A stretch of 45,247 nucleotides of DNA from Streptosporangiaceae bacterium (GTDB lineage Bacteria > Actinomycetota > Actinomycetes > Streptosporangiales > Streptosporangiaceae): contig JASHPR010000309.1 in assembly GCA_030038015.1 (NCBI GenBank), forward strand, positions 1 to 45,247, read 5' to 3'. The translations under genes were made by a program, and so were the position numbers. Shown here in pieces: positions 11,217 through 39,696 of this stretch. Positions within the stretch are counted from its first letter, which is position 1. Each line of letters starts with the position of its first letter. The notes beneath the pieces are model-generated. The model worked only from the letters and a program-made list of their open reading frames with translations, did no database searches and had not been told where the DNA came from.

Positions 11217-11233
11217 CCCGAGAGGAGACCGAC

Positions 11234-13413: not shown

Positions 13414-14123
13414 CCATTCCCGTGATCGGGATCAGCACCTACTCCGTGCATGCGGACTGGAGAGCCTGGAAGGGCGACGCCGCTTTGACGCCGCGCACGT
13501 ACATGAACTGCGTCATCCGCTCGGGCGGCATCCCACTCCTCCTCCCGAACGTGTTGCCGCAAGAGGCCGCGATCGACGCGCTGCTCAACCGCGTTGACGG
13601 CGTCGTACTGATCGGCGGTGAGGACATGTGCGGGGTGTGGAGTGGGCGGGAGGAGGCGGACTCCCAGCACGCTGGGCACTGCGACGAGCGCGACAGCTTC
13701 GAGGTCGCGCTGGCGCGCCGGGCCTGGGAGCGCGACGTCCCGCTGCTCGGCATCTGCCGCGGCGCGCAGGTGCTCAACGTCTCCCGCGGAGGAACGCTCA
13801 TCGAAGATCTGCCGATGGCCGGCGCCTCCCGGGAGCATCTCACCGAGCGAGGGACGTTCAACCTGCACGAGGTCGACCTGAGCAGCGGCAGCCTCGCCGA
13901 GCGCATGTACGGGACGACCGCCCGGGTGCCATCGCACCACCATCAGGCGGTCGATCGCGCGGGCGAAGGGCTGACGGTCACAGGACGTGCCCGCGACGAG
14001 GTCGTCGAGGTAATCGAAGGGCCGGAACGCCGGTTCGCCATCGGCGTGCAATGGCACCCGGAGGAAGGTGAGGACATGATCCTCTTCGAGGAGCTGGTCA
14101 AGGCCGCCGGGGTGCTGGCATGA
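13410..14123 (+). CDS. Class I amidotransferase-fold (C26) gamma-glutamyl hydrolase, PuuD/IpuF-like
   Basis: A 237-residue stand-alone class I glutamine-amidotransferase-like hydrolase. The nucleophile is Cys116 in LGICRGAQVLNV, with His216 and Glu218 in QWHPEE; PSHHHQAV near 175 is the family's substrate-pocket segment. Relatives PuuD (gamma-glutamyl-GABA hydrolase) and the isopropylamine-pathway hydrolase remove the glutamyl group added by a GS-like ligase. It overlaps its neighbours by four bases on both sides, next to the GS-like gene, which supports a role in deprotecting the oxidised glutamyl-amide. There is no synthetase domain, so it is not a biosynthetic amidotransferase subunit. Confidence 0.88.
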   Translation: MTIPVIGISTYSVHADWRAWKGDAALTPRTYMNCVIRSGGIPLLLPNVLPQEAAIDALLNRVDGVVLIGGEDMCGVWSGREEADSQHAGHCDERDSFEVALARRAWERDVPLLGICRGAQVLNVSRGGTLIEDLPMAGASREHLTERGTFNLHEVDLSSGSLAERMYGTTARVPSHHHQAVDRAGEGLTVTGRARDEVVEVIEGPERRFAIGVQWHPEEGEDMILFEELVKAAGVLA

Positions 14124-15505: not shown

Positions 15506-15520
15506 GATGGAGAGGAACCG

Positions 15521-16489
15521 ATGACCACCGAGCTGGAGGAGCTCAAGCGCTCAGAGAAGTACTTCAACTTCACGCGGGAGATGATGCAGGGCGACATCTA
15601 CCGCAAGTACGAGAAGGCCATCAGGCGGATCTGGAATCCTGTGGACTTCGACTACACGCAGGACGCGGAGGACTGGAAGACGCTCGCAGAGTCCGACCGG
15701 AGGGCGCTCCTGGGCGTGACGATCCGCTTCTTCGCCGGCGAGCAGATCGTGGCGCGGGACGTAGTGCCGATGTTCGTGGCCGCCCGCGCGCTGGGCCGCT
15801 ACGACTGGGTGATGTTCCTGGGGACATTCGCGATGGAGGAGGCCAAGCACGCGGACTTCCTCGCCCACTGGCACAGCAAGGTCGTGGGGATCCTCGAGCC
15901 GCACGAGGTCGCGCCATACTTCCTCAGCCGCGGCAAGACCGTGGATCCGACCGGGCGCTTCGAGATCAAGGAGGTCGCCCACGAGGGCCTTCCCGCCTAC
16001 GCGCGCGCGCTCGAGAGCGCGGTCCACGACGGCGACAGCTACGAGATCAAGCGGCGCTTCATCCGCTATCTCACGCTCTACTGCGGGTTCGTCGAGGGTG
16101 TGCTGTCGATGCCCTCCTACGAGATCGTCGTCGACTCGTGCAAGCACTGGGGAAAGTTTCCCACCCTCCGGCAGGGCTTCCGCCACATCCTCGCCGACGA
16201 GGGCCGCCACATCACCTTCGGGACGAAAGCGATCCAGCTGATGCTCGCGGAGCATCCCGAGCTCGAGCGCGAGGTGCACGAGACCTTCGACGAGTTCCGC
16301 GGCTCCATTGTCGGCCTCGTCGAGTACCAGAAGACGATGGCGCACCTGGACCTAGAGAAATACCAGGTGCAGAAGGCGCGCCACTACCGCAACCGCTGTC
16401 GTGAGATGGGTGTCACCCCCGACGAGACGCTCGTCGAGCAGATCCTCGATCCCGAGATCGATTTCGTCGTCGGGGTGGTGGCCGGTTGA
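15521..16489 (+). CDS. R2-like ligand-binding oxidase (R2lox-type) di-metal protein
   Basis: A 322-residue ferritin-like protein related to the small subunit of class I ribonucleotide reductase. All six metal ligands of R2lox are present with conserved spacing: Glu74 (GEQIV), Glu107 and His110 (EEAKH), Glu192 (VEGVL), Glu227 and His230 (DEGRH). Val77 and Tyr187 sit three residues after the first Glu and five before the fourth, the positions of the Val-Tyr ether cross-link known in the Mycobacterium and Geobacillus proteins. R2lox proteins bind Mn/Fe and a long-chain ligand, and their reaction in the cell is unknown. Here the gene lies inside an amine operon, 15 bases after the aldehyde dehydrogenase, with GGAGAGG before its ATG. 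It may hydroxylate a glutamylated amine (inference). Confidence 0.85.
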   Translation: MTTELEELKRSEKYFNFTREMMQGDIYRKYEKAIRRIWNPVDFDYTQDAEDWKTLAESDRRALLGVTIRFFAGEQIVARDVVPMFVAARALGRYDWVMFLGTFAMEEAKHADFLAHWHSKVVGILEPHEVAPYFLSRGKTVDPTGRFEIKEVAHEGLPAYARALESAVHDGDSYEIKRRFIRYLTLYCGFVEGVLSMPSYEIVVDSCKHWGKFPTLRQGFRHILADEGRHITFGTKAIQLMLAEHPELEREVHETFDEFRGSIVGLVEYQKTMAHLDLEKYQVQKARHYRNRCREMGVTPDETLVEQILDPEIDFVVGVVAG

Positions 16490-16503
16490 TGGAGAGGCGG
16501 ACG

Positions 16504-16671
16504 GTGGGCAAGAAGCGTTATGTCTGCCTGGAGGCAGGCTGCGAGGCGGTGATCGAGGCAGCTGGCGAGGATTCGCTCGTCGAGGCGGTACAGGCGCACA
16601 TGTCAGAGGCGCATAACACCTTCGAGCTCGAGGACGTGATCCTCGCCAACGCCGTCGACGATCAGCGGTGA
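16504..16671 (+). CDS. Small DUF1059-like protein
   Basis: A 55-residue protein from GTG 16504, chosen because GGAGAGG at 16491-16497 lies six bases ahead, the same layout as before the R2lox gene. An ATG at 16489, overlapping the R2lox stop, would add five residues. It reads MGKKRYVCLEAGCEAVIEA with a Cys pair five residues apart and an HMSEAH segment, the pattern of DUF1059 proteins (YxCxxxGC...H...H), which suggests a small metal site. The family has no known function. Its place between the oxidase and a ferredoxin hints at a role with them, for example as metal or redox accessory (inference). Confidence 0.7.
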   Translation: MGKKRYVCLEAGCEAVIEAAGEDSLVEAVQAHMSEAHNTFELEDVILANAVDDQR

Positions 16672-16677
16672 GATCGC

Positions 16678-16833
16678 ATGCCGTACGTGATCGTCGAGCC
16701 GTGCATCGGCTCGACGAACGCCTGCTGCGCGCAGGTCTGCCCGGTCGAGGCGTGCCTCGCCGACAGCGACGTCCCGGTGGACTGGGAGCGCTACATCGCC
16801 GAGAACGCGAGGTACTTTAATGCACCGACGTAA
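16678..16833 (+). CDS. 51-residue ferredoxin, shortened
   Basis: A 51-residue ORF from ATG 16678 with GGTGAG five bases ahead. It begins MPYVIVEPCIGSTNACCAQV and ends with a PVDWERYIAENARYF-type segment. The start matches the first cluster region of seven- or eight-iron ferredoxins (Cys9, Cys16/17, Cys21) and the end matches the extreme C-terminus of longer family members (about 80-110 residues). The usual middle, with the CxxCxxC second-cluster ligands, is absent, as if the protein had recombined between two CPV-x-x-C motifs. Cys9, 16, 17, 21 and 26 remain, enough for one cluster in principle. It could serve as electron donor to the R2lox-type oxidase, or be a non-functional deletion product. 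Its stop overlaps the next gene by 14 bases. Confidence 0.65.
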   Translation: MPYVIVEPCIGSTNACCAQVCPVEACLADSDVPVDWERYIAENARYFNAPT

Positions 16834-18559
16834 CGGGAGCGTGGCGCACGCCATTGCGGTCTTTCTGAAGCAGCAGGGCATCGAGCGAGTCTTCAGTCTG
16901 CCCGGCGGCCACATGAAGCCGATTTGGGACGAGCTCGCGCACGAGGGCGTGCGCATCGTCACGGCCAGGCACGAGTGCGCCGCCGTCCATATGGCGCAGG
17001 CCGAGGCCGACCTGACGGGGCGGCTCGCCGTCGCGATCGTGACCACGGGACCTGGGCTCACCAACGCCGTCACCGGTATGGGCTGCGCGTATGCAGCTCG
17101 ATCGCCGGTGCTCGTCATCTCCACGCGGCCGCCACGTCCGCAGCAGGGCATGGGCGCGCTGGAGGAGATCGACCAGCCTGCGATCGTCGCGCCAGTGTGC
17201 CGGGGGGTCGAAGTCGTATCCCATGCCCGTCACGTCGTGCCGCGCCTGGACCTTGCTGTCAGCACCGCGTTGGGCGACAACGGCCCGCCGGGTCCAGTAT
17301 GTATCGAGTTTCCCACCGACCTCCTGGCCGAGGCGCTGCCGCCGCCGTACGCCGGCCACGCGGCGTGGTCGCGACGCACGCGCGCGATGCGGCCGCCCCT
17401 GCCCGAGACGGTGCACCGGGCCGCCGAGCTGGTGCGCAACAGCCGGCGGCCACTCATCATCTCCGGCCGGGCCGTGCTCGAGTGCCGCGACGCAGTCGTC
17501 CGCTTCGCGGAGAGCTCTGGCGCGGTCTATCTCGACACGCGCGCGAGCCGGGCTAATCTATCGGCGCGGATCCCGTCGTACGCTCCGGCGCTGCGTGCAC
17601 GCGTCATCGCCGAGGCCGACCTCGTGATCACTGCCGGTCGCGTGCTCGACTTCGAGCTCGCCTATGGCTCACCAGCGATCTTCCGGCAGGCCGAGGCCTT
17701 CTTGCGCATCGGCCGTGATGCCGACGAGGTGACCACCAACCGGCGCGGCGACGTGGAGCTGCGCGCGGACGTCGGACTCGCCTTGGAGGCACTCGTCGAC
17801 GCCGGAGCGGCTCCCGCTGACCCGGACCGCGACTGGCTCGAGGAGATCCAGGCGGAGAACGCACGCAAATCCGCGCTCTTCCAGCAGGGGCTCCGTTCAC
17901 ACCCACCCGACGAGCACGGCCGGATGCACCCCTACTCGATGATCGCGGCGGTCAACGACTTCATCTGCGACGACTCCGTCATCATCGCCGACGGGGGCGA
18001 CATCCTCTCGTGGGCGCGCACGGCTCTCCGCGCTCCCATGTACCTCGACCTGGGGCCGTTCGGTTGTCTCGGCGTCGGCGTGCCGTTCGCCGTCTCCGCG
18101 GCGCTGAACTTCCCGGGGCGCCGCGTCATCGCTGTCGTCGGCGACGGTGCGCTCGGCTTCAACGTTATGGAACTCGAGACCGCAGTGCGCGAGGGCGCGC
18201 GGGTGGTGGTCGTCGTCGCCAACAATCGGGCGTGGAACATCGAACGTGCTGACCAGATCGTCAACTACGACGGCCGCGTTGTCGGCACCGCGCTCACGGA
18301 CTGCGACTTCGCCGCCGTCGCGCGTGGACTGGGCGCTTATGGCGAGCGCGTGGAACGTCCCGAGGACCTCGCTCCCGCGATTGAGCGCGCACTGGCGCGA
18401 GCGCCGGCCGTCGTCGACGTCTTCGTCAGCGGCGAGCCGCTGTCGGCCGACACCCGGAGCGGCCTCGCAGTCGTCCCGCCCCTGCAGGCCCTGGTGGCGT
18501 GGGACCAGGCCGAGAACGAATGGCTCCAACAACACGAACCCCTGAGAGGATTGGCATGA
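16820..18559 (+). CDS. Thiamine-diphosphate-dependent lyase/decarboxylase
   Basis: A 579-residue three-domain ThDP enzyme. The activating Glu is residue 52 (ARHECAAVHMA), and GDGALGFNVMELETAVREG followed by VVVANNRAW is the GDG-NN cofactor motif. The family includes acetolactate synthase, benzoylformate decarboxylase, oxalyl-CoA decarboxylase and 2-hydroxyacyl-CoA lyase. Which one applies cannot be read from sequence, but a ligase in the same operon makes a 2-hydroxyacyl-CoA lyase attractive (inference). ATG 16820 lies inside the ferredoxin's last codons with GCGAGGT just ahead; a GTG at 16841 is the alternative. It differs clearly from the ThDP enzyme at the left edge. Confidence 0.87.
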   Translation: MHRRNGSVAHAIAVFLKQQGIERVFSLPGGHMKPIWDELAHEGVRIVTARHECAAVHMAQAEADLTGRLAVAIVTTGPGLTNAVTGMGCAYAARSPVLVISTRPPRPQQGMGALEEIDQPAIVAPVCRGVEVVSHARHVVPRLDLAVSTALGDNGPPGPVCIEFPTDLLAEALPPPYAGHAAWSRRTRAMRPPLPETVHRAAELVRNSRRPLIISGRAVLECRDAVVRFAESSGAVYLDTRASRANLSARIPSYAPALRARVIAEADLVITAGRVLDFELAYGSPAIFRQAEAFLRIGRDADEVTTNRRGDVELRADVGLALEALVDAGAAPADPDRDWLEEIQAENARKSALFQQGLRSHPPDEHGRMHPYSMIAAVNDFICDDSVIIADGGDILSWARTALRAPMYLDLGPFGCLGVGVPFAVSAALNFPGRRVIAVVGDGALGFNVMELETAVREGARVVVVVANNRAWNIERADQIVNYDGRVVGTALTDCDFAAVARGLGAYGERVERPEDLAPAIERALARAPAVVDVFVSGEPLSADTRSGLAVVPPLQALVAWDQAENEWLQQHEPLRGLA

Positions 18560-18948
18560 GCGTCACCATCCATCAGCTGGAGCACCGAGAGGCTCCGCGC
18601 GGTTACAGCGAGGCGGCCAGCGGCAGCGGGATCCTTGCTGTGGCGGGGCAGCTCCCAGCGCACGAGCTGCTCCAGGCAGAGGCAGGGTTCGCCGAGCAGT
18701 TCGTTTCGGCTCTGCGGCGGTTCGTGGAGGTCGTCGAGTCCTCCGGCGCGGCCAGGACCGACATCCTCCTCATGCGGATCTATGTCACCAGCGTGACGGA
18801 GTACACCGGATCGCTGCGCGAGTTCGGGCGCGATTACAAGGAAGCCCTCGGCGGCCAGTACCCCGCCGTCACGCTCGTCGAGGTGAGCGGGCTGATCGAC
18901 CCTCGCGCCAAAGTGGAGATCGAAGGCCTCGCGTCGGTGCCAGGCTGA
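18556..18948 (+). CDS. RidA/YjgF/UK114-family protein
   Basis: A 130-residue RidA-family protein starting at ATG 18556, which overlaps the preceding stop (ATGA) and has GAGAGGA at 18544-18550. The C-terminal IDPRAKVEIEGLA carries the conserved Arg that in RidA enzymes contacts the substrate carboxylate. RidA proteins hydrolyse reactive enamine/imine intermediates made by PLP enzymes; many pathway-specific paralogues exist. Here it closes the ten-gene operon and may remove imines formed during amine oxidation or by the dialkylglycine-decarboxylase-like enzyme nearby (inference). Confidence 0.88.
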   Translation: MSVTIHQLEHREAPRGYSEAASGSGILAVAGQLPAHELLQAEAGFAEQFVSALRRFVEVVESSGAARTDILLMRIYVTSVTEYTGSLREFGRDYKEALGGQYPAVTLVEVSGLIDPRAKVEIEGLASVPG

Positions 18949-18997
18949 CCGGACGTTATTGGCATAGGAGGATGTGCCGATCTGCGGGTCAGTGGCT

Positions 18998-19999
18998 ATG
19001 CTGGTCCGGGTGAGCGCAATCCGGCTGCGGCATCCCTCCGACGTCCCGATCTACAAGCAGATCCTCGGCCACATCAGATACATGATCGAAGCGGGACAGC
19101 TTGCGGATGGCGACCGCTTGCCGAGCAGCCGCCTGCTCGCGGACAACCTGCATGTAAACCGGAACACGGTGGCGCGGGCGTACCGGGATCTGCGCGACCA
19201 GGGTCTCGTGGAGTCACGCAAGCGCAGTGGCATGGTTGTCACGGGAGCTGTGGCGGCCCGGCGGCAGGGGGCGGCGCGCGACCAAGCCCGCTCGGTCATC
19301 GAGTCTGCCGCCCGCAGGTGCATCTCCTTGGGCCTGTCGGCCGAGGAGGTCTACTCCTTGGCCTTCCACTTCGCCACGCACGCGGAGGACGCGAAGCTCC
19401 AAGTATCGTTCGTCGAGTGCAACACCGAACGTTCCAACTACTTCGCGAAGGAGCTCTCCGACCGACTGGGGTTGCCCGTCAAGCCGCTCGTGCTGGGGGA
19501 ATTCGATGCCAGCGCGGAGCGGCCTGATCTGGTGCTCACGACGTTCTTTCACCTCGCTGAGGTCCGCCGGCTGATGCGCCGCACCGGATGCGACGTGGTG
19601 GCGATCGTGGTCGCTCCCCACGTGCAGACCCTCGTGCAGATTGCCGCCGTCCCAAAGGACCGGCGCGTTGGCATCCTCTACTCGACGGAGCACCAGGCGG
19701 AAGGCATCCGGGACTCGCTGGTGCAGTCCGGCCTCTCGAACATCGAGGTGCTCCACGGCTCCGACGACGAATCTCTTGAGAGCGTCGACGTGGTCATCGT
19801 GCCTAGCGAGATGCCGGAGCTGCGCGACGAGCTCGATGGTCGCGTCAAGGTGATCGAGTTCGGCAACGTTCTTGACGAGGCGTCGACCCGTATGGTCTCG
19901 GCGGTCGTTGACGAGCTGCGCGACAGCAAAGCCAACGGATCGGCCGCCGGGAACACGCCGCACGACGGCTTCGAGCTGTTCAGCCTCCCGGTTGGCTGA
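18998..19999 (+). CDS. GntR-family transcriptional regulator with a large ligand-binding-like C-terminus
   Basis: An N-terminal winged helix-turn-helix of the GntR family (VPIYKQILGHIRYMIEAGQL, LPSSRLLADNLHVNRNTVAR, AYRDLRDQGLVESR) is followed by about 230 residues that are not a PLP-enzyme (MocR) or FCD domain. This C-terminus reads like an alternating alpha/beta ligand-binding domain (VSFVECNTERSNYF, LVLTTFFHLAEV, VAIVVAPHV, VGILYSTEHQ). It lies 50-odd bases after RidA and is the likely local regulator of the operon. The start is uncertain: GTG 18974, ATG 18998 and GTG 19010 are in frame; AGGAGG at 18966-18971 is too near the first. The gene end overlaps the convergent hydrolase by 20 bases. 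Confidence 0.82.
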   Translation: MLVRVSAIRLRHPSDVPIYKQILGHIRYMIEAGQLADGDRLPSSRLLADNLHVNRNTVARAYRDLRDQGLVESRKRSGMVVTGAVAARRQGAARDQARSVIESAARRCISLGLSAEEVYSLAFHFATHAEDAKLQVSFVECNTERSNYFAKELSDRLGLPVKPLVLGEFDASAERPDLVLTTFFHLAEVRRLMRRTGCDVVAIVVAPHVQTLVQIAAVPKDRRVGILYSTEHQAEGIRDSLVQSGLSNIEVLHGSDDESLESVDVVIVPSEMPELRDELDGRVKVIEFGNVLDEASTRMVSAVVDELRDSKANGSAAGNTPHDGFELFSLPVG

Positions 20000-20816
20000 A
20001 CGCCGCCAGGACAGCGGCCGCGGTCGCTGCCGGGTCCTCGAGGTGCGGCCAGTGACCGACGTGCGAAAGCATGATCTGCTTCACTCCTCGAGGGAAGTAC
20101 TCGCTGAAGTCAGGGTGGCAGGCGGGGCTAATGCACCCGTCCTGCCCACCGTGGAGGATCGTCGTCGGCACCGGGACTATCGGCCGAGCGGCCGGCGCCT
20201 CAAGGTTCGCTCGGTAATAGGCGCAGACCGCCTCTATCACCCCCGGCCGTTTGAGAACGCCGAGGACGTCAGGCCATTCGATCCAGTGGAAGCCGGGTGA
20301 CCAGTCCTGAACCAGTGCGGTGAGCCACTCGTCCCTGCGAGCGACCTCCGGCGCGTTCTGAACGTAGGCGAGGAAGACCGCGTACCACGCACTCCGCTGC
20401 TCGCGGAACGCGGAGTGCCGGATCGCGTAGCCACTCGGATGCGGCACTGCAAGCGACACGAGGTGAACGAACCGGTCTGGGTGGTCGGCTGCCAGCGGGA
20501 AGGCCAATTCGGCACCCCAGTTATGGCCGACGTACCGGACCGCTTCGAGGTCCAGCGCGTCGAGAAGCGCGATCAGGTCGGCACCGACTGCTCCCGCGCC
20601 GTAGTCGCCGTCGGGTGCCGGTGCCGACGGGTGATATCCGGGGAGCGCCGGGCACAGGCAACGGAAACCGTGGGCGGCGATCCTCTCAGCGAACGGCAAA
20701 AGGCCAAGGGGGTGGTCCGGGAAGCCATGGACGAGGACCACTGGCTCGCCTACGCCCACCTCCCAGACCGCGAGCTCCGCCCGGGCTTGTACAACGCGCT
20801 GGCACACCTGTGACAT
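19980..20816 (-). CDS. Alpha/beta hydrolase, epoxide-hydrolase/dehalogenase-like, with Asn at the nucleophile position
   Basis: A 278-residue alpha/beta hydrolase from ATG 20816; the frame extends 46 codons upstream into the neighbour's end, but that part is Arg/Ser-rich and not family-like. It has the HGFPDHP oxyanion motif, an HGGQDGCISP segment with the acidic residue and a C-terminal SHVGHWPHLEDP with the catalytic His. The nucleophile elbow is GHNWGA with Asn99 (codon AAC) where epoxide hydrolases and haloalkane dehalogenases have Asp (GHDWGA). It may be inactive, may act by another route, or the Asn may deamidate. It follows the class III aminotransferase-like gene by 37 bases, so they are probably cotranscribed. 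Confidence 0.8.
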   Translation of the reverse strand: MSQVCQRVVQARAELAVWEVGVGEPVVLVHGFPDHPLGLLPFAERIAAHGFRCLCPALPGYHPSAPAPDGDYGAGAVGADLIALLDALDLEAVRYVGHNWGAELAFPLAADHPDRFVHLVSLAVPHPSGYAIRHSAFREQRSAWYAVFLAYVQNAPEVARRDEWLTALVQDWSPGFHWIEWPDVLGVLKRPGVIEAVCAYYRANLEAPAARPIVPVPTTILHGGQDGCISPACHPDFSEYFPRGVKQIMLSHVGHWPHLEDPAATAAAVLAAFSQPGG

Positions 20817-20853
20817 AGACGAAACGATATGTCCTACGGCGACAGGACAAGCC

Positions 20854-22173
20854 TCAGGTGGATGTCGCCGCGTGGAGGCGAGACCCACCGACCGGCCGCG
20901 CATCGGCGAGGGCGCGGTCGAGGATCTCGAGCCCGACTTCGAGATCCGCCTCACTGATCGTCAGGGGTGGCGCGAGGCGCAGAACGCTGCCGAGCGCGGG
21001 GAACTTCACGATGTTGACGTTCAAGCCGAGCTCAAGGCAGCGCTGCGTCACCGCCGTTCCCAAGACAGGGTCTGGCACGCGCGTGTCACGGTCCTGCACC
21101 AGCTCGAGACCAAGCATCAACCCGGCTCCGCGGACGTCGCCTACCTGCTCGTGCCGCCTGCGGAGTTCCTCCAAGCCGGTGCGCAGACGGCTGCCGAGCT
21201 CGGCCGCTCGCTCTGCGAGCCGCTGGTCGACGACGGTCTGCAGCACTGCCCGGCCGATGGCCGCCGGCAGCGGATCCGCCACATGAGAGGTGAAGTGCAG
21301 GAAGCCCTTTTCGAAGGCGTCCTGCTCGATCTCGGCCGACGTGATCGTCGCCGAGAGAGGGAGCCCGCCACCCAGCGTCTTCGATAGCGTGAGGATGTCC
21401 GGGATGACGTCCTCCCCCTCGAACGCGAACATCCGACCGACCCGGCCGAGCCCGGTCTGTGCTTCGTCCAGGATCAGCAGCATGCCGCGTTCGTTGCAGT
21501 GCCGGCGGAGCGCCGCCAGGTAGCCGGGCGGCAACGGCACGATGCCGCCAACGCTAAGAACTGGTTCGGCGATCACTGCGGCCGGCGCGCCGGTCGACTG
21601 GGCATCCGCAAGCTCCATGCCCACCTCGAGACAGGTGAAGTCGCAGCGGTCGCGGCAGTGCCGTACTGGGCACCGGTAGGCATTCGGTGTTGGCAACACC
21701 ATGCTCCCCGGCATCGCCGGCCCATAGCCGCGATGGCCGGCACTGTACGTACTCGATGCCGCCCCGGCGGTCATGCCGTGCCAGGAACCGGTGAACGCGA
21801 GAACCTCGTGGCCGCCCGTGTGGAGTTTCGAGAGTCGCAGGGCGGCTTCGTTGGCCTCGCCACCGGTCGACAGGAACATCGCCCGCGATAGCGTCGGAGG
21901 AAGGACGGCCATCAGCTCGCGGGCCAAGTCGAGGACATCCGTCCCGATGAAGCCGCTGTAGAGGTGGACGAGGCGAGACCCCGCATCCTGCATCGCCGCA
22001 AGGATCGCTGGATGGCTGTGCCCGAGCGTCGCGCACATTTGCCCCGATGTGAAGTCGAGGATGCGGCGACCTTCAGTCGTCGTCAGCCAGCTTCCTTCGG
22101 CCCGCTCGATCACGACATCCGCGAACTCGCCACCGTACCGGATGAGCATTTCCCGTCCATCGTGCATGCTCAC
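20854..22173 (-). CDS. 2,2-dialkylglycine-decarboxylase-like PLP enzyme (class III aminotransferase)
   Basis: A 439-residue fold-type I PLP enzyme. It resembles Burkholderia 2,2-dialkylglycine decarboxylase: Gln45 in FTSGQMCATLGHSHPAI (Gln52 there), Trp131 in SWHGMT (Trp138), Asp236 in LDEAQTG, the PLP Lys265 in TLSKTLGGG (Lys272), and an Arg in LRLAPPLT (Arg406). That enzyme decarboxylates alpha,alpha-dialkyl amino acids such as 2-aminoisobutyrate to a ketone while transferring the amino group to pyruvate. An ordinary omega-transaminase function is the alternative. A four-Cys stretch lies near residues 168-181. The GTG at 22173 or an ATG at 22167 starts it; a candidate promoter would begin transcripts about at 22167. 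Confidence 0.83.
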   Translation of the reverse strand: MSMHDGREMLIRYGGEFADVVIERAEGSWLTTTEGRRILDFTSGQMCATLGHSHPAILAAMQDAGSRLVHLYSGFIGTDVLDLARELMAVLPPTLSRAMFLSTGGEANEAALRLSKLHTGGHEVLAFTGSWHGMTAGAASSTYSAGHRGYGPAMPGSMVLPTPNAYRCPVRHCRDRCDFTCLEVGMELADAQSTGAPAAVIAEPVLSVGGIVPLPPGYLAALRRHCNERGMLLILDEAQTGLGRVGRMFAFEGEDVIPDILTLSKTLGGGLPLSATITSAEIEQDAFEKGFLHFTSHVADPLPAAIGRAVLQTVVDQRLAERAAELGSRLRTGLEELRRRHEQVGDVRGAGLMLGLELVQDRDTRVPDPVLGTAVTQRCLELGLNVNIVKFPALGSVLRLAPPLTISEADLEVGLEILDRALADARPVGGSRLHAATST

Positions 22174-22225
22174 ATGTCAGCAGCAGAGGTCTCACATGTC
22201 AATAGACTGGCTGATCAGCATGTGA
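22169..22225 (-). promoter_or_regulatory. Candidate promoter and repeated operator of the dialkylglycine-decarboxylase-like gene
   Basis: On the minus strand a perfect TTGACA (22202-22197) is followed after 17 bases by TGACAT (22179-22174), giving a transcript start near ATG 22167 and hence a possible leaderless mRNA. The 11-base direct repeat CTCACATGTCA occurs at 22169-22179 and 22191-22201, 22 bases apart (two helical turns), and CATGTGA (22219-22225) is a third, inverted half. These look like sites for a regulator such as the GntR protein encoded divergently. Confidence 0.45.
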
Positions 22226-22229
22226 TAGA

Positions 22230-23320
22230 CGATAGAAAAATTTATTTCATTCTGCGATGATCGTGACATGCGTGTTGCCCCGCTGGCCTTGCGGCCGGGT
22301 GATGAGAATGAACTCCGGCGCATGGCGGCCTCCCAGCGCGGTGATGGCGGGATGGCCCGCCGGGCGCGGATCGTGTTGCTGGCCGCCGAGGGCCGACCGC
22401 ACAGCGAGGTCGCCCAGCGGGCGGGGACCTCGGTGCCGACGGTTCGGCAGTGGCGGTCCCGGTATGCCGGCGGCGGGATCGAGGCGCTGAGGGATCTGCC
22501 CCGCCCCGGACGGCCGAAGACGCTGGATAAGACGGAGATCCTGGTCCGGACGCTGGAGCCGCCGCCGCGCCGGCTGGGGGTGACGCACTGGTCGTCGCGG
22601 CTGCTGGCCACCGACCTCGGCATCTCCTCCGCCAGCGTGGTCGAGGCCTGGCAGGACTGGGGGCTGCAACCCTGGCGGCAGCAGAGCCTCAAGTTCTCCA
22701 CCGAGCCGCAACTGGAGGCCAAGCTCGCCGACGTGGTGGGCTTGTACCTCCATCCCCCTGACAACGCCGTAGTCGTCTGCATAGACGAGAAGTCCCAGGT
22801 GCAGGCGCTGGACCAGACCCAGCTGATCCTGCCCATGCTGCCCGAGCGGGCCACCCACGACCACATCCGGCATGGCGTCACCACGCTGCTCGCCGCCCTG
22901 GAGATGGCCACCGGGCAGGTGGTGGACGCCTGCTATCCCCGCCACCGGCACCAGGAGTTCCTACGCTTCCTGAAGAAGGTGGCCGCCGCCTGGCCCGGGC
23001 GTGAGCTGCATGTCGTGTGCGACAACGATGTCACCCACAAGCATCCGGCCATCAGGGACTGGCTGGCCGCCAGCCCGCGCGTCACCCTGCACTTCACCCC
23101 CACCGGATGCTCGTGGCTGAACATGGTGGAAGCGTTCTTCTCGATCATCACCCGCCAAGCCATCCGCCGCGGCACCTTGCGCTCCGTCAAGGACCTGACC
23201 GCCAAGATCGGCGCCTTCATCGACGGCTGGAACCAGCAATGCCAGCCATTTGCGTGGACTAAACCAGCCGATGAACTGCCGACCAACATCAGCAAGAAAG
23301 AAACTTCCCGAGCGGAACAC
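22230..23320 (+). mobile_element. IS630-family insertion, boundaries approximate
   Basis: The transposase coding part and its short flanks give about 1.1 kb, normal for IS630. The AT-rich left flank (AATTTATTTCATTCTGC, from about 22238) and the inverse of the right flank (AAGTTTCTTTCTTGCTGATG, up to about 23310) are imperfectly similar and may be terminal repeats. IS630 elements insert at TA; TA lies at 22229-22230 and at 23321-23322, but the ends are not proven. It sits in the divergent space between the PLP enzyme and a GntR gene. Confidence 0.5.
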
Positions 23321-24016
23321 TACGTGCGTGAAGACCCAACCAGCCTGGGCGAGATCGCGTACAGCCGGGTCCGCCATGCCATCGTCCGGCTCGAGCTACC
23401 GCCGGGCGCGCCGGTCTCGGAGCAGCAGCTTGTCGAGGAATACGGCCTGACGAAGGCCTCCGTCCGTGCGGCGCTTGCTCGCCTGCGGGTGCACGGCCTC
23501 GTGCAGTTGGCACCTCGGCGCGCCCATGTTGTAACCGCCGTGACGCTGCGAGACGTGCGCGAGGTGTACGAGCTGCGGCTCGCGATCGAGCCGCTGGCGG
23601 CGGAGTCCGCGGCGGGACGGATGACTGCCCGGGATCTGCAGCGGCTTCGCGAGCTAACCTCCGATCCGCCCGATCTTGAAGACTCCGTCTCGGTGGACCG
23701 CTTCCTCATCGCCAACCGAGCGGTTCACGTGGGTGTCGCGGCCGCGTCCGGGAACCAGCGCTTGGAGCGCATCGTCTCCCAGTTGCTCGACGACAGCGAG
23801 CGCGTCATCCTGCTCGCGGTGCGCGCGGGCGCCGGCCATCACGGCCGCCGCGTCCACGAGGAGCACCGCGCGCTGATCGCCGCGTTGGAAGCGGCCGACA
23901 AGAAGGCCGCGCGCGCGGTGATGGCCGCCGCGATCGGCGGTTTTCGCGACGAGCTCGTAGATGCACTGATGAACTCCGAGCGGATGTCTCATATCGCCCT
24001 GCACCCCGCTGACTGA
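22268..24016 (+). CDS. IS630 transposase fused in frame to a GntR/FCD regulator
   Basis: One uninterrupted 582-codon frame. Residues 1-~350 are an IS630 transposase: N-terminal helix-turn-helix (RIVLLAAEGRPHSEVAQRAG), then the catalytic triad Asp173 (CIDEKSQ), Asp252 (CDNDVTHKHP) and Glu288 (SWLNMVEAFFSIITRQAIRR). The usual end of such proteins (PFAWTKPADEL, KKETSRAEH) is present but has no stop. Residues 353-582 are a complete FadR-type regulator: GntR helix-turn-helix (IAYSRVRHAIV, VSEQQLVEEYGLTKASVRAA) and an FCD ligand domain (LRDVREVYELRLAIEPLAAE). GTG at codon 353 (23324) with AGCGGA upstream could start the regulator alone. Either a fusion protein, a separate regulator, or both may be made. 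The regulator probably served the divergent PLP-enzyme gene. Confidence 0.82.
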   Translation: MRVAPLALRPGDENELRRMAASQRGDGGMARRARIVLLAAEGRPHSEVAQRAGTSVPTVRQWRSRYAGGGIEALRDLPRPGRPKTLDKTEILVRTLEPPPRRLGVTHWSSRLLATDLGISSASVVEAWQDWGLQPWRQQSLKFSTEPQLEAKLADVVGLYLHPPDNAVVVCIDEKSQVQALDQTQLILPMLPERATHDHIRHGVTTLLAALEMATGQVVDACYPRHRHQEFLRFLKKVAAAWPGRELHVVCDNDVTHKHPAIRDWLAASPRVTLHFTPTGCSWLNMVEAFFSIITRQAIRRGTLRSVKDLTAKIGAFIDGWNQQCQPFAWTKPADELPTNISKKETSRAEHYVREDPTSLGEIAYSRVRHAIVRLELPPGAPVSEQQLVEEYGLTKASVRAALARLRVHGLVQLAPRRAHVVTAVTLRDVREVYELRLAIEPLAAESAAGRMTARDLQRLRELTSDPPDLEDSVSVDRFLIANRAVHVGVAAASGNQRLERIVSQLLDDSERVILLAVRAGAGHHGRRVHEEHRALIAALEAADKKAARAVMAAAIGGFRDELVDALMNSERMSHIALHPAD

Positions 24017-25430: not shown

Positions 25431-26249
25431 TCACGAAGTCAGACCCATATCGGATTGGTCGTGCTCAGGTGACGTCAGTGATGCGCTCATGCAGGCCGCG
25501 ATGTTGGCCAGGCTCACGTACCCGTGGACGGGCATCCCGGTCTGATTGGTGAGCACGCTGACATCCTGACCGCCCGGATCTCCGAGGTTTGACACGATGA
25601 GTACGGCTCCGGTCATGTCCTCATGCTGTGTATAGGCGCTCAGCGTGACGATGCAGCCGATCTTCGCCCCAGTGGCAGCGAGCAGGCCGTTCCTGGAATC
25701 CTCAATGACCACTGTCTCGGCAGCAGGTGTTCCAAGTTCCCGCAATGCGAGCAAGTAGATGTCGGGCGACGGTTTCTTCCGCGGAATGACGTCGCCCGCG
25801 AACTTCGAGAACCGCGCGGCCAGGTCGGTACCGACCGCCACCTCCAGCACGGCCCGAACCGAGTCCATGGCGGAGGTGGACGCCACCGCCAATTGCCAGC
25901 CCGCCGCCGCGGCGGCACGGGCGATGCGACCCACTCCCGGCCGGGGCGCAATCGCGCCGGACCGCACCATGGCTGCGAAGATCTCGGTTTTGCGTCGGTG
26001 CCAGCGCGCGACGAGCTCCGCCTGCGCGGCGGCGTCGGAGGGCAGGCCGGCGGCCCGGACGAACTCGGGCGTCAGCAGGCTTTGCATCCGCTCCTTGCCG
26101 CCGCCGATCTGCAGGCGGTGGCCGTACTCCTGCTGTGACCACCGTACCGGCAGGCCGAACTCGGCGAATGTCTGGTTGAAGGCCGGTAGATGCCCGTCTC
26201 GCTCGGTGTCGGCGAGCACGCCGTCGCAATCGAAGATGAGCGCTACCAC
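25431..26249 (-). CDS. HAD-superfamily phosphatase (CbbY/phosphoglycolate-phosphatase-like)
   Basis: A 272-residue HAD hydrolase. Motif I is DCDGVLADTE with the nucleophile Asp7 and acid Asp9; motif II is VASTSAMDSV, and PRKKPSPDIY and VIEDSRNG are motifs III and IV. A helical cap between residues 20 and 90 includes the family's GGGKERM stretch. Such proteins dephosphorylate small sugar or polyol phosphates or act as beta-phosphoglucomutase-like mutases. About 50 extra residues at the C-terminus lack family similarity. GTG 26249 overlaps the aldolase stop, so the two are coupled. It is the last gene of the seven-gene operon. Confidence 0.88.
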   Translation of the reverse strand: MVALIFDCDGVLADTERDGHLPAFNQTFAEFGLPVRWSQQEYGHRLQIGGGKERMQSLLTPEFVRAAGLPSDAAAQAELVARWHRRKTEIFAAMVRSGAIAPRPGVGRIARAAAAAGWQLAVASTSAMDSVRAVLEVAVGTDLAARFSKFAGDVIPRKKPSPDIYLLALRELGTPAAETVVIEDSRNGLLAATGAKIGCIVTLSAYTQHEDMTGAVLIVSNLGDPGGQDVSVLTNQTGMPVHGYVSLANIAACMSASLTSPEHDQSDMGLTS

Positions 26250-27091
26250 GCCCGTCCCTCACCGCCGAGTCGGCGGATGTGATCCAGTGCCATGTCCTGC
26301 ACCGCGCCGTGGACGAAGCGGGCCAGTTCGGGCGGGTCATACACGTGTGGAAAACGGCCGATGTAGTCCTTGTGCGCGTCGATATACGCGATCTTGAGCG
26401 CGGTCGAGATGTTGACCTTCGCGCAGCCGCGGCTGATCAGGTCGTCGAACTGTGCCTGCGACATGCCGGTGCCACCATGCAGCGCGATCGGCACACCCAC
26501 CTTCTCGACGATCGCCGTCACCCGATCACCGTCCAGCGATGGTTCGCTGTGATAGAGCCCGTGCGCGTTGCCGATCGCCGGCGCGAAGCAGTCCACCTTG
26601 GTGGACTGGATGAAGGAGACCGCGTCCTCCACCGAGTACGGCTGGTCAGCCTCGCCAGGTCCTTCCTCCACCCGCCCTATGGCCTCGAGTTCGCCCTCCA
26701 CGTCCACCCCGGCCGCGTGCGCTTCAGCAACGACGGCGCCAGTTTGTGCCGTGTTCTCCTGGACATTGAGGGCGGAGCCGTCGAAAAGCACCGAGTTCCA
26801 GCCGCAGGCGATGCACTCGCTGATGACCTTGCGGTCCGGGCAGTGGTCCAGGTGGAGGCTGACGGGCACCGCCAGCCCGGCCGCCATCTCACGGAACGCG
26901 TTCGCCAGGATTGCGGCCCCCTCCCAGCGCACGGTCTTCACCGAGGTCTGGATGATCACCGGCGCTTTTGCGCATGCCGCGGCGTCGAGCACGGCGCGCA
27001 TGGTCAGGTTGTTGACGATGTTGAAGGCCGCGACGCCGTACCGGTGCTCGAACGCGTCAGTGAGGATCTCCCGCAGCGCGACAATGGGCAC
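26243..27091 (-). CDS. Class II (zinc) fructose/tagatose-bisphosphate-aldolase-like protein
   Basis: A 282-residue class II aldolase of normal length. It shows AFNIVN, the metal and catalytic region SLHLDHCPD, the second-shell WNSVLFDGSAL, EGELEAIG, GNAHGLYHSEP with a zinc His, and ALHGGTGM with the third His and phosphate-binding Gly/Thr. The family cleaves or condenses ketose-phosphate with dihydroxyacetone phosphate. Members in operons with a kinase and a flavin dehydrogenase often act in polyol or modified-sugar catabolism; this operon has both. GTG 27091 is the start. The substrate is not assignable from sequence. Confidence 0.88.
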   Translation of the reverse strand: MPIVALREILTDAFEHRYGVAAFNIVNNLTMRAVLDAAACAKAPVIIQTSVKTVRWEGAAILANAFREMAAGLAVPVSLHLDHCPDRKVISECIACGWNSVLFDGSALNVQENTAQTGAVVAEAHAAGVDVEGELEAIGRVEEGPGEADQPYSVEDAVSFIQSTKVDCFAPAIGNAHGLYHSEPSLDGDRVTAIVEKVGVPIALHGGTGMSQAQFDDLISRGCAKVNISTALKIAYIDAHKDYIGRFPHVYDPPELARFVHGAVQDMALDHIRRLGGEGRAW

Positions 27092-27097
27092 GCCAGG

Positions 27098-27313
27098 TCA
27101 CCGGCCCGAAGCCCGGCCGGACGTCATCCGCCCGGCCATGAAGGCCGCCATAAGCATCGCGCCGGCCGCCATCAACAGCGGCAGGTCGGCTGGCTCGAGC
27201 CTGACCTCAGAGCGCCACGCGCCCATGGCCGCCTCAATGACCGGGCCGTCGCGCTCCACTCGCGCGCCGGTCAGGCGGACAGGGAACGTGCCAACGGGGG
27301 ATAGGACGCGCAT
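27098..27313 (-). CDS. Small protein of unknown function, in the kinase/aldolase operon
   Basis: A 71-residue ORF starting at an ATG at 27313 (MRVLSPVGTFPVRLTGARVE); upstream Mets at 27328 and 27391 are in frame. The C-terminal half contains a hydrophobic stretch (LPLLMAAGAMLMAAFMAG) that may be a short amphipathic helix. There is no Cys, so it is not the small [2Fe-2S] subunit found in related multi-subunit flavin dehydrogenases. It lies between the aldolase and flavoprotein with gaps of 6 and 11 bases, which supports it as real. It may be an accessory subunit. No family recognised. Confidence 0.55.
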   Translation of the reverse strand: MRVLSPVGTFPVRLTGARVERDGPVIEAAMGAWRSEVRLEPADLPLLMAAGAMLMAAFMAGRMTSGRASGR

Positions 27314-27324
27314 CTGACTGCCCC

Positions 27325-28248
27325 TCATCTCGTGCTTGCCGGAGGCGCTGCGAGTCGGCTGGACCCCAGCGCCGCCATCACCTGGCTGCATGTCGCCGCG
27401 GCCGAGGCACCGGCCGGCTGCTCCCCCCGGTTCTCGCCGTCGGGCTGGCAGAAGAACACGCCATCGCGCTCGCTGATGGCGCCCTCGATATTGCGCATCG
27501 GCCGCATGTCGGCCGCCAGGATCAGCGCATCGATCGGGATTCGAAACGACCCGCTGTCGTGCTGGACCGATCCGCCCTCGGCGCGTCGCACGTCCTCGGC
27601 GCCTCCTGGCGCGGCCTCAGCGTCGGGCTGGCTCGCCGCGCCCTCCCCGTTGCGGCGCAGCACCGCGACCTCCGCCCGCGCCGTTCCGTGCACACTCGCA
27701 ACCCGGTACCCGGTAAACACCCTCACGCCCGTCGGCACTTCCGTCTGAGCCGCGGTTCCGGCGGGAAGCGCCATCGTTACCTCCGACGCGCCTGCCAACA
27801 GCTGCACCTTCGCGCAGTGAACGGCGAACGCGCCGGATCCGGCGATCAGCGGCCTGTGCCCGAGGAGCACTCCGGCCTGGGTGAGGTGCATCGCCGCCGA
27901 ACCCGGCAGTACGCCCGCGCACCGGTCACCTGCGATCCCCAGCTCGGCTCTCGTCGCCGGGCGGGATCCGGTGGCCACGATGAGCGCGTCGCATGGCAGC
28001 ATTGCCCTGCCGTCCACCCCGAGAATCTCCACGCCGACGCCGTCGTACTGAACCGCTAGCGTCCCCAGGACGAAACGGGCGCCCGCCCGCCGAGCAGCCT
28101 TGGCCAGCCGCCCGGCCGAGGGTTCCGGCTCCTGACCTCCCGGATGCGGCAGCCGCTCGACGACAGTGACCGAGACGCCGGCCGATGCCAGTTCCGCCGC
28201 GCACATCAGGCCACGCTGCCCGGACCCGGCGATAACGACCCTAGACAT
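27325..28248 (-). CDS. FAD/NAD(P)-binding oxidoreductase, GlpB/opine-oxidase-A-like subunit
   Basis: A 307-residue flavoprotein starting at ATG 28248 (MSRVVIAGSGQRG). The FAD dinucleotide motif GSGQRG and a following Glu (VVERLPHPGG) are at the N-terminus; an LIVATGSRP motif near residue 100 and an inner GSGAFAVHCAKV strand give the second nucleotide site. It overlaps the preceding DAO-type gene by eight bases. Pairs of a DAO-type subunit and a second FAD subunit are known in GlpAB, opine oxidases and hydrogen cyanide synthase, so this is probably the partner subunit passing electrons to an acceptor. It is shorter than usual (about 400), lacking part of the C-terminus. Confidence 0.78.
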   Translation of the reverse strand: MSRVVIAGSGQRGLMCAAELASAGVSVTVVERLPHPGGQEPEPSAGRLAKAARRAGARFVLGTLAVQYDGVGVEILGVDGRAMLPCDALIVATGSRPATRAELGIAGDRCAGVLPGSAAMHLTQAGVLLGHRPLIAGSGAFAVHCAKVQLLAGASEVTMALPAGTAAQTEVPTGVRVFTGYRVASVHGTARAEVAVLRRNGEGAASQPDAEAAPGGAEDVRRAEGGSVQHDSGSFRIPIDALILAADMRPMRNIEGAISERDGVFFCQPDGENRGEQPAGASAAATCSQVMAALGSSRLAAPPASTR

Positions 28249-29683
28249 GGCGGGCCCGCCCAACGCCGAGCGTCGAGCCAGGCTCGCCGAACGGCAGCTC
28301 CCAGGCCTCCCCGCCGAGGTACAGGGAGGCGATGAACGAGACGCCGGACAGGCACGCCGACCCCTGGCAGCGTCCCCAGGTCGCGTGCGTCCGCTTAGCA
28401 ATGCCGGCGATGGAGCGAGCCGGCAGCGGGGAACTCAGTGCCCGGTGAATGTCCGCGGCGGTCACCTTCTCGCACGCGCACACGACGGTTCGCCCGAGCG
28501 GACTGGCCGCGGCGAGCTCGCAGTCCAGCGTGTCCGAGAATGGCAACGGGGCGTCCAGGCTGGCCGTGAACGAGGCCTTCGGCGGCCGGTCGAACCCAGC
28601 TTCCTGAAGCAACCCAAGCACGTAATCGGCGATGCCGAGCGACCCGGAAACCCCGGTGGAGCGAATGCCGGCCACCTGGATCACGTTGCGCATGACGGCC
28701 GACCGCTCGATCCGGTAGGTCCGCTCGGAATGCGGCCGCAGCCCGGAGAACGACTTGATGACGTACCGTTCGTCGATGCCGGGCATGAGCGTCCGGCATT
28801 CTCGCAGCACGCCTGCCAGCACGTCCGCGCTCGTCGACCGGTCGTGCTTGTTGTCCAGGTCCTCGGCGGTGGGCCCGAGCAGGCAGGTCCCGTGCGCGGT
28901 CGGAATCACCATGATCCCGTGCGTCCGCTCGGTGGGCATCATGGTCAGGATGCGTGGCACCCTCCGGCCGAACTCGCGGTCCAGCAGCAGCCACTCGCCG
29001 CGGCGCGCGATGATCTCGAAGTCCTCACAGCCCAGGCTGCGCGACACGGTATCGGCGCCGAGACCGGCCGCGTTCACCACGAACCGCGGCCGCAGGACGG
29101 CTCCGGGCGTGCGGACCTCGACCACCTCGTCGCCAGAGGCAATCGCATCCAGCAACGGCGCGGAGAAGTGGAACCGTACGCCGTTGGTCGCCGCCAGCTC
29201 CCCGTACCCGATGGTCAGCCGGATCGAGTCGATGACCCCCTCCACCGGCACCTCGACCCCGCCCGCCGAGTCCGGGTTGGCGTGGGGAGCGGCGGCCACT
29301 ACGTCCTCGGCGCTCAGCGCGCGGGCCTTGACCCCATTAGCCTCGGCATTGCGTACCAGCTCGGGTATCCGCTCGGCATCCTCCTGCGTGCGCGCGATCG
29401 CGACGGTCCCGCACCGCCGGAACGGCACGCCAAGCCGTCGGCAGACGTCCTCCCAGCGCGGGCTGGACGCGCAGACGAGCTGTGCTTCCAGGCTGCCGGC
29501 CGGCAGCGTCCAGCCCGAGGCGGTGATCCCGCTGTTCGACTTAGAGGTCTCGTCCGCGATGTCATGCCGCCGGTCGATGACCGCGACCTTAGCGTCGAAC
29601 TCGCTGAGGCGACACGCGATGGCAGATCCGACTACGCCCGCGCCCACAACCAAGACATCGACATCGGACACTGGATTGTTCAC
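28241..29683 (-). CDS. FAD-dependent dehydrogenase with BFD-type [2Fe-2S] domain (GlpA-like)
   Basis: A 480-residue DAO-superfamily flavoprotein. The N-terminal GAGVVGSAIACRLSEF binds FAD; LPAGSLEAQL, GIMVIPTAHGTCLLGPT and GIRSTGVSGSLGIADYV are characteristic of GlpA-like enzymes. The C-terminal ~90 residues form a BFD-like [2Fe-2S] domain with Cys pairs in VCACEKV and GRCQGSACL. GlpA oxidises glycerol 3-phosphate; here the substrate is more likely a phosphorylated polyol or amino alcohol made by the upstream kinase (inference). GTG 29683 overlaps the kinase stop (GTGA) and has GGGGAG upstream. Confidence 0.86.
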   Translation of the reverse strand: MNNPVSDVDVLVVGAGVVGSAIACRLSEFDAKVAVIDRRHDIADETSKSNSGITASGWTLPAGSLEAQLVCASSPRWEDVCRRLGVPFRRCGTVAIARTQEDAERIPELVRNAEANGVKARALSAEDVVAAAPHANPDSAGGVEVPVEGVIDSIRLTIGYGELAATNGVRFHFSAPLLDAIASGDEVVEVRTPGAVLRPRFVVNAAGLGADTVSRSLGCEDFEIIARRGEWLLLDREFGRRVPRILTMMPTERTHGIMVIPTAHGTCLLGPTAEDLDNKHDRSTSADVLAGVLRECRTLMPGIDERYVIKSFSGLRPHSERTYRIERSAVMRNVIQVAGIRSTGVSGSLGIADYVLGLLQEAGFDRPPKASFTASLDAPLPFSDTLDCELAAASPLGRTVVCACEKVTAADIHRALSSPLPARSIAGIAKRTHATWGRCQGSACLSGVSFIASLYLGGEAWELPFGEPGSTLGVGRARHV

Positions 29684-30633
29684 TGGGCTCCGCTCCCCGC
29701 AAGCCCGCCTTGGTCTGGGCCTCCTGCGGTGCTTGGCACAGCTTCCAGCAAGTCCATGGCCGAGCGGAACTCCCCGCCCGAGGCCGCGGCGCGCATCTTC
29801 GCGAACTGCTCGGCCGCGTACTGGCAGAAGTCGAAGTCCAGATCGCTGATGGCCTGCTGCAGCACCGACCACATCGCCTCGCGGAACGCCGACATGAACC
29901 GCAGCAAGCGGACGGCCGCTGCCGCGCGCTCATCCGACGCGCCGTAATACAGCCGCACCAGCTCCTGGTCCTCCTCGGCGCTGAGGCCATGGTTGACCGA
30001 GAAGTTCGCAAGGTCGAACCGCGGATCACTCATGCCGGCGTACTCCCAGTCGACCAGGAACAGGCGGCCATCGAGGTCGACGAAATTGGCGGTGAGCAGA
30101 TCGCCGTGGCACGGAGCGGTCATCGCGAAGCCGACCGCCTGCCTGATCCGGTCGGCGATCGGCCGGGCCCACGCATAGCCGTCGCCTGGATCGGCGCCCC
30201 GGGCGACCGCGTTATTCAGGTAGAAGTCGACGACAGCGAACGGGTCGATCGTGCCGGGGATGGCCGGCCCCTGGTGCAGCGCGCGGAGCGTCTGAGCGAC
30301 TCGGGCCAGCATCCAGGGCGAATGCATCTGCTCCGGGATGACCTGCTGACCGGGCAGAAACCGCGTCACCAGGTACCCTTCGCGTGGCATCGACCGGATG
30401 AGCTCCGGCCCGATGCCCAGCTCGGCGGCCATCGACGTAGCCTCCTGCTCGTTCGCCCTGTCGATCGCGAGCAGCTCCGCGTCCTGGCCGAACAGCCGGA
30501 TGACGTAGGTGCCGTCCGGCGCACTAGCCTTGTAGTTGACGTTGGTGATCCCGCCCGGCAGCTCCTCCAGCACTACGGCGGAGCCGGGCCACAGCTGGGC
30601 GGCGACGCGATGAGCGTCGGCGGCAGACGCCAC
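29680..30633 (-). CDS. APH/choline-kinase-like phosphotransferase
   Basis: A 317-residue kinase-like protein. GGITNVNYKAS is the N-lobe ATP loop, VIRLFGQDAE supplies the conserved nucleotide-binding strand, and CHGDLLTANF with LVDWEYAGMSDPRFDLANF gives the catalytic HGD loop and the metal-binding Asp. This matches LicA-type choline/ethanolamine kinases and other members of the APH fold. It probably phosphorylates a small alcohol or amino alcohol brought in by the permease encoded one base upstream (stop/start TAGTG). The next gene is a GlpA-like dehydrogenase, so the order is uptake, phosphorylation, oxidation, aldol cleavage, dephosphorylation. Confidence 0.88.
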   Translation of the reverse strand: MASAADAHRVAAQLWPGSAVVLEELPGGITNVNYKASAPDGTYVIRLFGQDAELLAIDRANEQEATSMAAELGIGPELIRSMPREGYLVTRFLPGQQVIPEQMHSPWMLARVAQTLRALHQGPAIPGTIDPFAVVDFYLNNAVARGADPGDGYAWARPIADRIRQAVGFAMTAPCHGDLLTANFVDLDGRLFLVDWEYAGMSDPRFDLANFSVNHGLSAEEDQELVRLYYGASDERAAAAVRLLRFMSAFREAMWSVLQQAISDLDFDFCQYAAEQFAKMRAAASGGEFRSAMDLLEAVPSTAGGPDQGGLAGSGAQ

Positions 30634-32258
30634 TAGCCGAGCCTCGGATCATGCTCGTGCAACTCGGGGTCGCGTGGGAGCGGCACGGCGTCAGCCGTGG
30701 CTGCGATCATGTCGGGATCGCCGGTCTCGAGTTCCTCGAAGGAAGCCTGGCGGACCGGCCCGCGGAACCAGTGCCGGGCGGATATCAGCCACCAGCCGCC
30801 GAACAGGGCGAGCGCAGCGATCAGGGTCAGCGGCGCGTAGTTCACGACCGTCCAGGTGAATCCGGTGCGGAATGGGATTCCCGTCGGCGTGACCGGCATG
30901 ATGAACAGGATCGTGATGATCACGATCCAGGCGAGCGCGATCGAATCGATCCAGCGGTAGTGCTTGCCGAGCGTCCACGCGCCCGCCTCGAACCGGCGGC
31001 CCAGCCTCATCCGCAGGAAGATCGGCAGCGCGTAGGCGCCGTAGAGCGCGATCACAGTGATCGACGTGGCGACGAGGTATCCGATCGTGGCGTCTGCGAA
31101 GGTCGGCAGCATCCAGAAGATGTCGAAGACTACCACGAGCCAGATCGCGTAAATCGGTGCCCGACGCCTGTTGAGGCGGTGCCACAAGTGATGGCCGGGC
31201 ACGGCCTTGTCCCGGGAAAGTGCCCAGATGATCCGCGATGACGCCGTGATCCCGGCGGTATCACAGAAGAACTGGGCTGCAACGACGATGAACAGCAAGA
31301 ACTCGGCCCACTTCGTGCCAAGCGCGGTCTGCCAGATGTACTGCACGTCGAAGGCCCCGGCGCTCAGCGTGCCGTTCACGTTCGGGACCGCGAAGGTCAG
31401 CGCCAGCAGCAGGATCCACCCGAAGACGCCGGAAATCGCTACAGAAGTCCACACACCGCGGGCGGCTTTGCGGGACGCACCGGTGGTCTCCTCGCTCATG
31501 TGCGCGGAAGCGTCGTAACCGCCGATCGTGTACTGGGCCTGCAGGAGGCCGATGCCGATGACGAACCAGAAAAGCAGCGAGCTGAAACCGTGCCCGCCGA
31601 AGCCAGACGCATTGATCGTCTTGGTGAATACGAACGCGAACGACTGGTGATGCGTCGGGATGGCCAGCAGCACGACAGCCAAGATGATCACACCGATCAT
31701 GTGCCACCAGGCTGACAAATTATTGATGATCCTGACCGGCGAGATGCCGAAACTGTTGATAATCCCGCCCACGACCAGGATTACCGCGTAGAACAAGAAG
31801 ATCGTGCCGTTCGTGGTGTGCACCACGCCGGGGAACCACAGGTTTCCTAGTGCCACCGCGAAAACGGCAGCGCCCCATCCGACAGCTGCCACCGCAATGG
31901 TGAATCCGACAATGTTGAGCCAGCCCGTAAACCAACCCCAGGCGGGACTGCCGAGCTTGGAAGCCCAGTAGTACAGGCCGCCCGCAGTAGGCATCGCCGA
32001 GGCCAGCTCCGCCATGGCCAGCGCCACGAACAGGCACATGATGGAGACGAACGGCCAGCCCCAGGACATGATGATCGGCCCACCGTTGGCGAAACCGATG
32101 TAATAGGACGTGAGCGTTCCAGCAAGAATCGAGATGATCGTGAATGAGATTGCGAAATTAGTAAAGCCGCTGAGCCTGCGCCGGAGTTCTTGCGCATAGC
32201 CCATCCGGTGGAGGAGCTGCTCGTCCGTGAGGTCCGCTAGCCGCCGCGTATCGCTCAC
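30633..32258 (-). CDS. APC-family permease (amine/choline/GABA type)
   Basis: A 541-residue permease with about 12 membrane segments, similar to the bacterial GABA/choline-type APC branch. NFAISFTIISILAGTLTSYY is the N-terminal substrate helix region, AELASAMPTAGGLYYWASKL is the family signature, and QYTIGGYDASAHMSEETTGA matches the helix 6-7 region. GTG 32258 is preferred because GGAGGAGG lies six bases ahead; the frame continues 20 codons upstream. It is the first gene of a seven-gene operon divergent from a LysR regulator, so it probably imports the operon's substrate. Confidence 0.9.
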   Translation of the reverse strand: MSDTRRLADLTDEQLLHRMGYAQELRRRLSGFTNFAISFTIISILAGTLTSYYIGFANGGPIIMSWGWPFVSIMCLFVALAMAELASAMPTAGGLYYWASKLGSPAWGWFTGWLNIVGFTIAVAAVGWGAAVFAVALGNLWFPGVVHTTNGTIFLFYAVILVVGGIINSFGISPVRIINNLSAWWHMIGVIILAVVLLAIPTHHQSFAFVFTKTINASGFGGHGFSSLLFWFVIGIGLLQAQYTIGGYDASAHMSEETTGASRKAARGVWTSVAISGVFGWILLLALTFAVPNVNGTLSAGAFDVQYIWQTALGTKWAEFLLFIVVAAQFFCDTAGITASSRIIWALSRDKAVPGHHLWHRLNRRRAPIYAIWLVVVFDIFWMLPTFADATIGYLVATSITVIALYGAYALPIFLRMRLGRRFEAGAWTLGKHYRWIDSIALAWIVIITILFIMPVTPTGIPFRTGFTWTVVNYAPLTLIAALALFGGWWLISARHWFRGPVRQASFEELETGDPDMIAATADAVPLPRDPELHEHDPRLG

Positions 32259-39694: not shown

Positions 39695-39696
39695 CC

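Follow-up and report, generated by a model that had tools for sequence, protein, structure and literature searches.

An IS630-type transposase and a complete regulator of the GntR family (FCD subfamily) are joined in a single open reading frame in a Streptosporangiaceae genome. The join probably goes back to an element that has no stop codon of its own: the transposase frame relies on the stop provided by its CTAG target, and a base other than G at that place lets it run into the neighboring gene. The element lies between the gene of the GntR/FCD regulator and a divergent class-III aminotransferase gene. As in most of its subgroup, the transposase frame lacks an own stop; its final codon (CAC) coincides with the end of the element, and it depends on the TAG of the CTAG target. 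With TAC (Tyr352) in place of that stop, the frame passes the putative start GTG 23324 into the intact regulator. In the course of events that we propose, the insertion would also have deprived the regulator of its promoter and leader, and the regulator would now be made from transcripts passing through the element. The expected products would be a chimera of ~64 kDa, a 25-kDa form that results from a restart at GTG 23324, or both. All coordinates are those of the window, i.e., the whole stretch of 45,247 nucleotides that was analyzed (Table 1).

Table 1. Coordinates of the fused frame, its parts and the adjacent features in the window
Feature	Position	Strand	Remarks
Class-III aminotransferase gene, divergent	20854..22173	-	Likely start ATG 22167
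Two exact TCACATGTCA copies	22170-22179, 22192-22201	.	Spaced by 22 bp; putative operator
IS630-type element, ~1,099 bp	22222..23320	+	Right end certain, left tip (GTG 22222) probable only
Fused frame, IS630 transposase and GntR/FCD regulator	22268..24016	+	582 codons, ATG 22268 to TGA 24014-24016
Transposase part	22268..23320	+	Residues 1-351; DDE = D173, D252, E288
CAC, last codon of the element (His351)	23318..23320	+	Where most relatives end
TAC, target TA plus C (Tyr352)	23321..23323	+	TAG stop in 53/62 relatives here
Complete GntR/FCD regulator	23324..24016	+	Domains, end-to-end alignment, start candidates

A transposase and a regulator in one frame

The fused frame is confirmed. A preliminary description of this DNA had reported a 582-codon frame with an intact DDE triad and an entire regulator, and it is borne out by the open reading frame itself, by Pfam and NCBIfam models and by the alignment of the triad. 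Not a single internal stop is found over the 582 amino acids, and the Pfam domains follow each other in the order HTH_29 (residues 32-87), DDE_3 (193-310), GntR (364-422) and FCD (432-555). The N-terminal part matches the NCBIfam model of IS630 family transposases (NF033545) with 240.7 bits, against a cut-off of 100, and the three catalytic residues could be located in the alignment with relatives. In the regulator part, PF00392 and PF07729 score above their cut-off. Seven FCD relatives align with this part from end to end. It also matches GntR proteins of solved structure (e.g., 7u5q, 7xp0 and McbR 4p9f), with which it shares a full-length winged helix and an FCD domain. Unlike these regulators, it has a 352-residue transposase in front of it in the frame that begins at 22268. 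Only one start candidate (ATG, GTG or TTG) precedes the winged helix, GTG 23324, which is the only plausible own start of the regulator; in its closest relative (L053, 39% identity by tblastn), the likely start is at about the same place. The predicted structure of the fused protein consists of two parts joined by low-confidence residues (321 to 361), in a model whose overall confidence is low (mean pLDDT, 63; pTM, 0.31) and whose underlying alignment comprised the loci without the plasmid rows.

A stop codon made by the landing site

In a few IS630-like elements (IS870, ISRf1 and ISAr1), the stop codon of the transposase is completed by the target on insertion. In the literature searched, no paper explicitly describes such stops for IS630. 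We drew relatives of the transposase from whole genomes and plasmids, and comparison of multi-copy pairs defined the ends of the element as TA-GTG...CAC-TA inside CTAG. To call the ends, the scan asked only for a TA flanking both of them and for G as the first base on the left. It yielded 62 distinct copies with both ends (L095, with a GGG tip and a mis-detected end, was excluded from 63), and in ten more rows the pair of ends was not recognized. All 62 have a C before the left TA and a G after the right one (C-TA-G). In 53 of them the right TA and the G next to it supply the TAG that ends the transposase (CAC-TAG), so that the stop lies in the target, as it does in IS870, ISRf1 and ISAr1; nine have an internal stop of their own, and none reads through. 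To judge from these copies, the coding frame of these IS630 elements normally gets its stop from the landing site. The missing stop at the usual transposase end, already noted in the preliminary description, is real and follows from the fact that in most relatives the stop lies outside the element. The closest relative found (61 to 62% identity) likewise ends CAC-TAG, matching window positions 23318-23323. Within the clade at at least 50% identity, the target stop is present in 12 of 16 copies, and the remaining 4 all belong to one genome. In the copies L064, L067, L069 and L070 (genome G435), a TAA inside the element, 16 bases from its end, makes the target stop dispensable, which is another solution within this clade. 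Others (L010, L015, L022 and L023) are longer, with 1,373 to 1,421 bp between the recognized ends, and their stops lie inside the element. The host genome itself holds a diverged IS630 copy (L040, G000:C712:6830-7864) at a normal CTAG site, with a target-made TAG stop.

The window copy resembles the IS630 family (Tc1/mariner superfamily) in its transposase, in the right end of the TA-GTG...CAC-TA type, in size and in a frame that extends to the last base. If the 9 nt deleted from its transposase are added to its 1,099 bp, the length becomes 1,108, and nearly all copies of the close clade measure 1,108 to 1,123 bp (one copy, 1,146). Published work has established that IS630 prefers the TA of CTAG (Tenzen and Ohtsubo 1991, as cited in PMC2170065), and ISY100 duplicates the TA, with occasional imperfect products (PMC2170065). 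The window copy, however, differs on both sides. On the right it reads CAC-TA-C, with the TA at 23321-23322 and a C at 23323. Since this base is C and not G, TAC stands in place of TAG, and the frame, unclosed by the target, enters the regulator at GTG 23324. Thus, where IS870, ISRf1 and ISAr1 obtain a stop from the target, the window copy yields a fusion with a host gene. On the left, the best ungapped match of the terminal repeat to the right one is only 11 of 22. MAFFT places the left tip at GTG 22222 with a 2-nt gap, aligning CATGTG to the CTAGTG of relatives. The flank of this probable tip is AT (22220-22221), preceded by C, where TA would be expected. With TA-C on the right and C-AT on the left, the window copy has neither the CTAG target nor the TAG stop. 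Because the left flank lacks a clean TA, the two flanks show only in part the duplicated TA that a simple insertion would leave. The element may have inserted at a site other than CTAG, or at a canonical one whose TAG was afterwards changed to TAC by a point mutation, or the present state may stem from a later rearrangement. The preliminary description was right about the fused frame but had overlooked its cause, namely, the stop borrowed from CTAG and the C at 23323 instead of the G of the relatives.

The copy deviates precisely at the base that completes TAG at a canonical site. If this were a sequencing or assembly error (true G), the transposase would stop at TAG 23321-23323 and the regulator would start at GTG 23324. 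We know the junction from a single genome, a draft assembly split into 786 contigs, for which contamination is estimated at 6.87%. Nevertheless, the left flank is non-canonical too, which makes the copy unusual beyond one base, and the remaining frame is free of errors, so that we regard a base error as improbable. A deletion or a one-ended event could also have brought the element's right end together with a regulator gene that did not originally lie beside the aminotransferase gene. The absence of CTAG from both flanks and the mismatch of AT and TA as a target duplication fit such a rearrangement, and single-end insertions are common in vitro for ISY100 (PMC2170065). Besides, the readable upstream neighbors of the aminotransferase homologues are LysR (L044 and L052) or a transporter (L045), with no FCD gene. 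But the right tip and its TA are exactly preserved, with the regulator start one base beyond, and the signature of a second breakpoint was not found; we consider this origin unlikely.

Age of the junction and significance of the fusion

Among the three frames that leave the element only the fused one is open (231 codons), the other two closing after 42 and 2 codons, and an in-frame join by itself is about a 1-in-3 chance event. The window transposase forms the longest branch of the tree and differs at four near-invariant residues, against 0 to 2 in relatives. A branch codon model (ten sequences, 335 codons) gave an omega of 0.130 for the window branch versus 0.097 elsewhere, a difference that is not significant for these ten sequences (2 x delta lnL, 1.0). 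Decay of the transposase, which the four departures had suggested, was not confirmed by this model. Through most of its evolution, ordinary purifying selection thus acted on the transposase, which makes it probable that the junction is recent, i.e., young relative to the element. As only 3% of single substitutions create a stop, an open frame is to be expected at a young junction and is no evidence for a selected fusion.

Neither a fused relative nor an empty site came up across 1,697 look-ups of genomes, a number that includes repeats, or in the collections of plasmids, phages and viral sequences. No record among 72,556 plasmids spans 80% of the fusion, phages and viral contigs gave no match, and the search of genome contigs returned four distant loci with the transposase only. 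Recurrence of the junction in related strains, suggested earlier as a check, was thus not seen in any of the genomes, plasmids, phages and viral contigs searched, and the conservation of the fused frame across lineages that would mark a domesticated fusion is absent from these collections. An empty site was found neither by DNA nor by protein in relatives, in the order, in the phylum or in 343 genomes of the family. Close orthologues of the regulator were likewise absent from the 343 host-family genomes, from the order sample (best, 43%) and from the phylum sample.

All this bears on the idea that the HTH domains of the transposase act as a second DNA-binding head on the FCD regulator, with the frame kept by selection. 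The frame is open throughout, the sole deletion in the catalytic region with respect to relatives is in frame (9 nt), and the four near-invariant departures could mean that catalytic constraint has loosened. However, the branch test detected no significant change of constraint, the open frame is what the low rate of stop-creating substitutions predicts, and every collection searched lacked a fused relative. We find a selected fusion very unlikely. Of the outcomes proposed in the preliminary description, each may apply (an extra DNA-binding head, control of the regulator by an IS promoter, or a neutral join with GTG 23324 as the regulator start), and nothing computed favors the extra head. A still bolder version, which we hold to be highly improbable, is that IS630/CTAG elements are latent gene-fusion devices and that this copy is a selected two-headed regulator of the neighboring aminotransferase gene. 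As their stop sits in the target, copies at non-CTAG sites would fuse to what lies downstream; if this were true, a copy at (or mutated to) such a site would fuse a DNA-binding transposase to any in-frame downstream sequence. By the stopless frame that we prefer, the chimera is most likely an unselected by-product, and on the evidence at hand a function as a fused regulator seems unlikely.

The case is a new example of a fusion between an insertion sequence and a host gene, with its cause explained. CSB-PiggyBac, too, unites a transposase and an entire host protein in one reading frame, and this fusion is described as conserved and expressed (PMC2268245). In contrast, the fusion in the window is known from the sequence of one genome, and the order of the parts and the mechanism are different. 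Since the stop is borrowed from the landing site, a different flanking base is enough to join a DNA-binding transposase to a host protein, and a common bacterial element can produce a clean in-frame fusion in one step. This offers a testable and searchable route to transposase-host fusions in bacteria. It is also a warning for annotation, as such long frames can conceal a separate regulator that starts at the junction.

The divergent promoter region and its surroundings

The element begins ~55 bp upstream of ATG 22167, the likely start of the aminotransferase gene, which agrees with the earlier placement of the insertion in the divergent promoter region. It lies directly before the regulator start and would separate the regulator from any upstream promoter. 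A scan of the region for sigma-70-type promoters found none, a result that says little for this kind of genome; with no such site, promoter capture could not be demonstrated. The two TCACATGTCA copies, which precede the aminotransferase gene, form a pair that the genome contains just once, and they may represent an operator. We discounted a third half-site resembling an operator, GCATGTGATA (22218-22227), because most of it overlaps the element's probable left tip. In the aminotransferase homologues L044 and L052, a divergent LysR-type gene apparently replaces the FCD gene, judging by translations inspected by eye. A second GntR-type gene is located at 18974-19999 (plus strand), just past an alpha/beta-hydrolase gene, so that two GntR genes flank the aminotransferase gene and its neighbor. 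On both sides (9681-20954 and 26243-43898), the window codes for glutamine-synthetase-like proteins, C26 peptidase, aldehyde dehydrogenase and TPP enzymes, together with amino-acid permeases, sarcosine-oxidase-like proteins and DAO proteins. These surroundings look like a region of amine or amino-acid catabolism.
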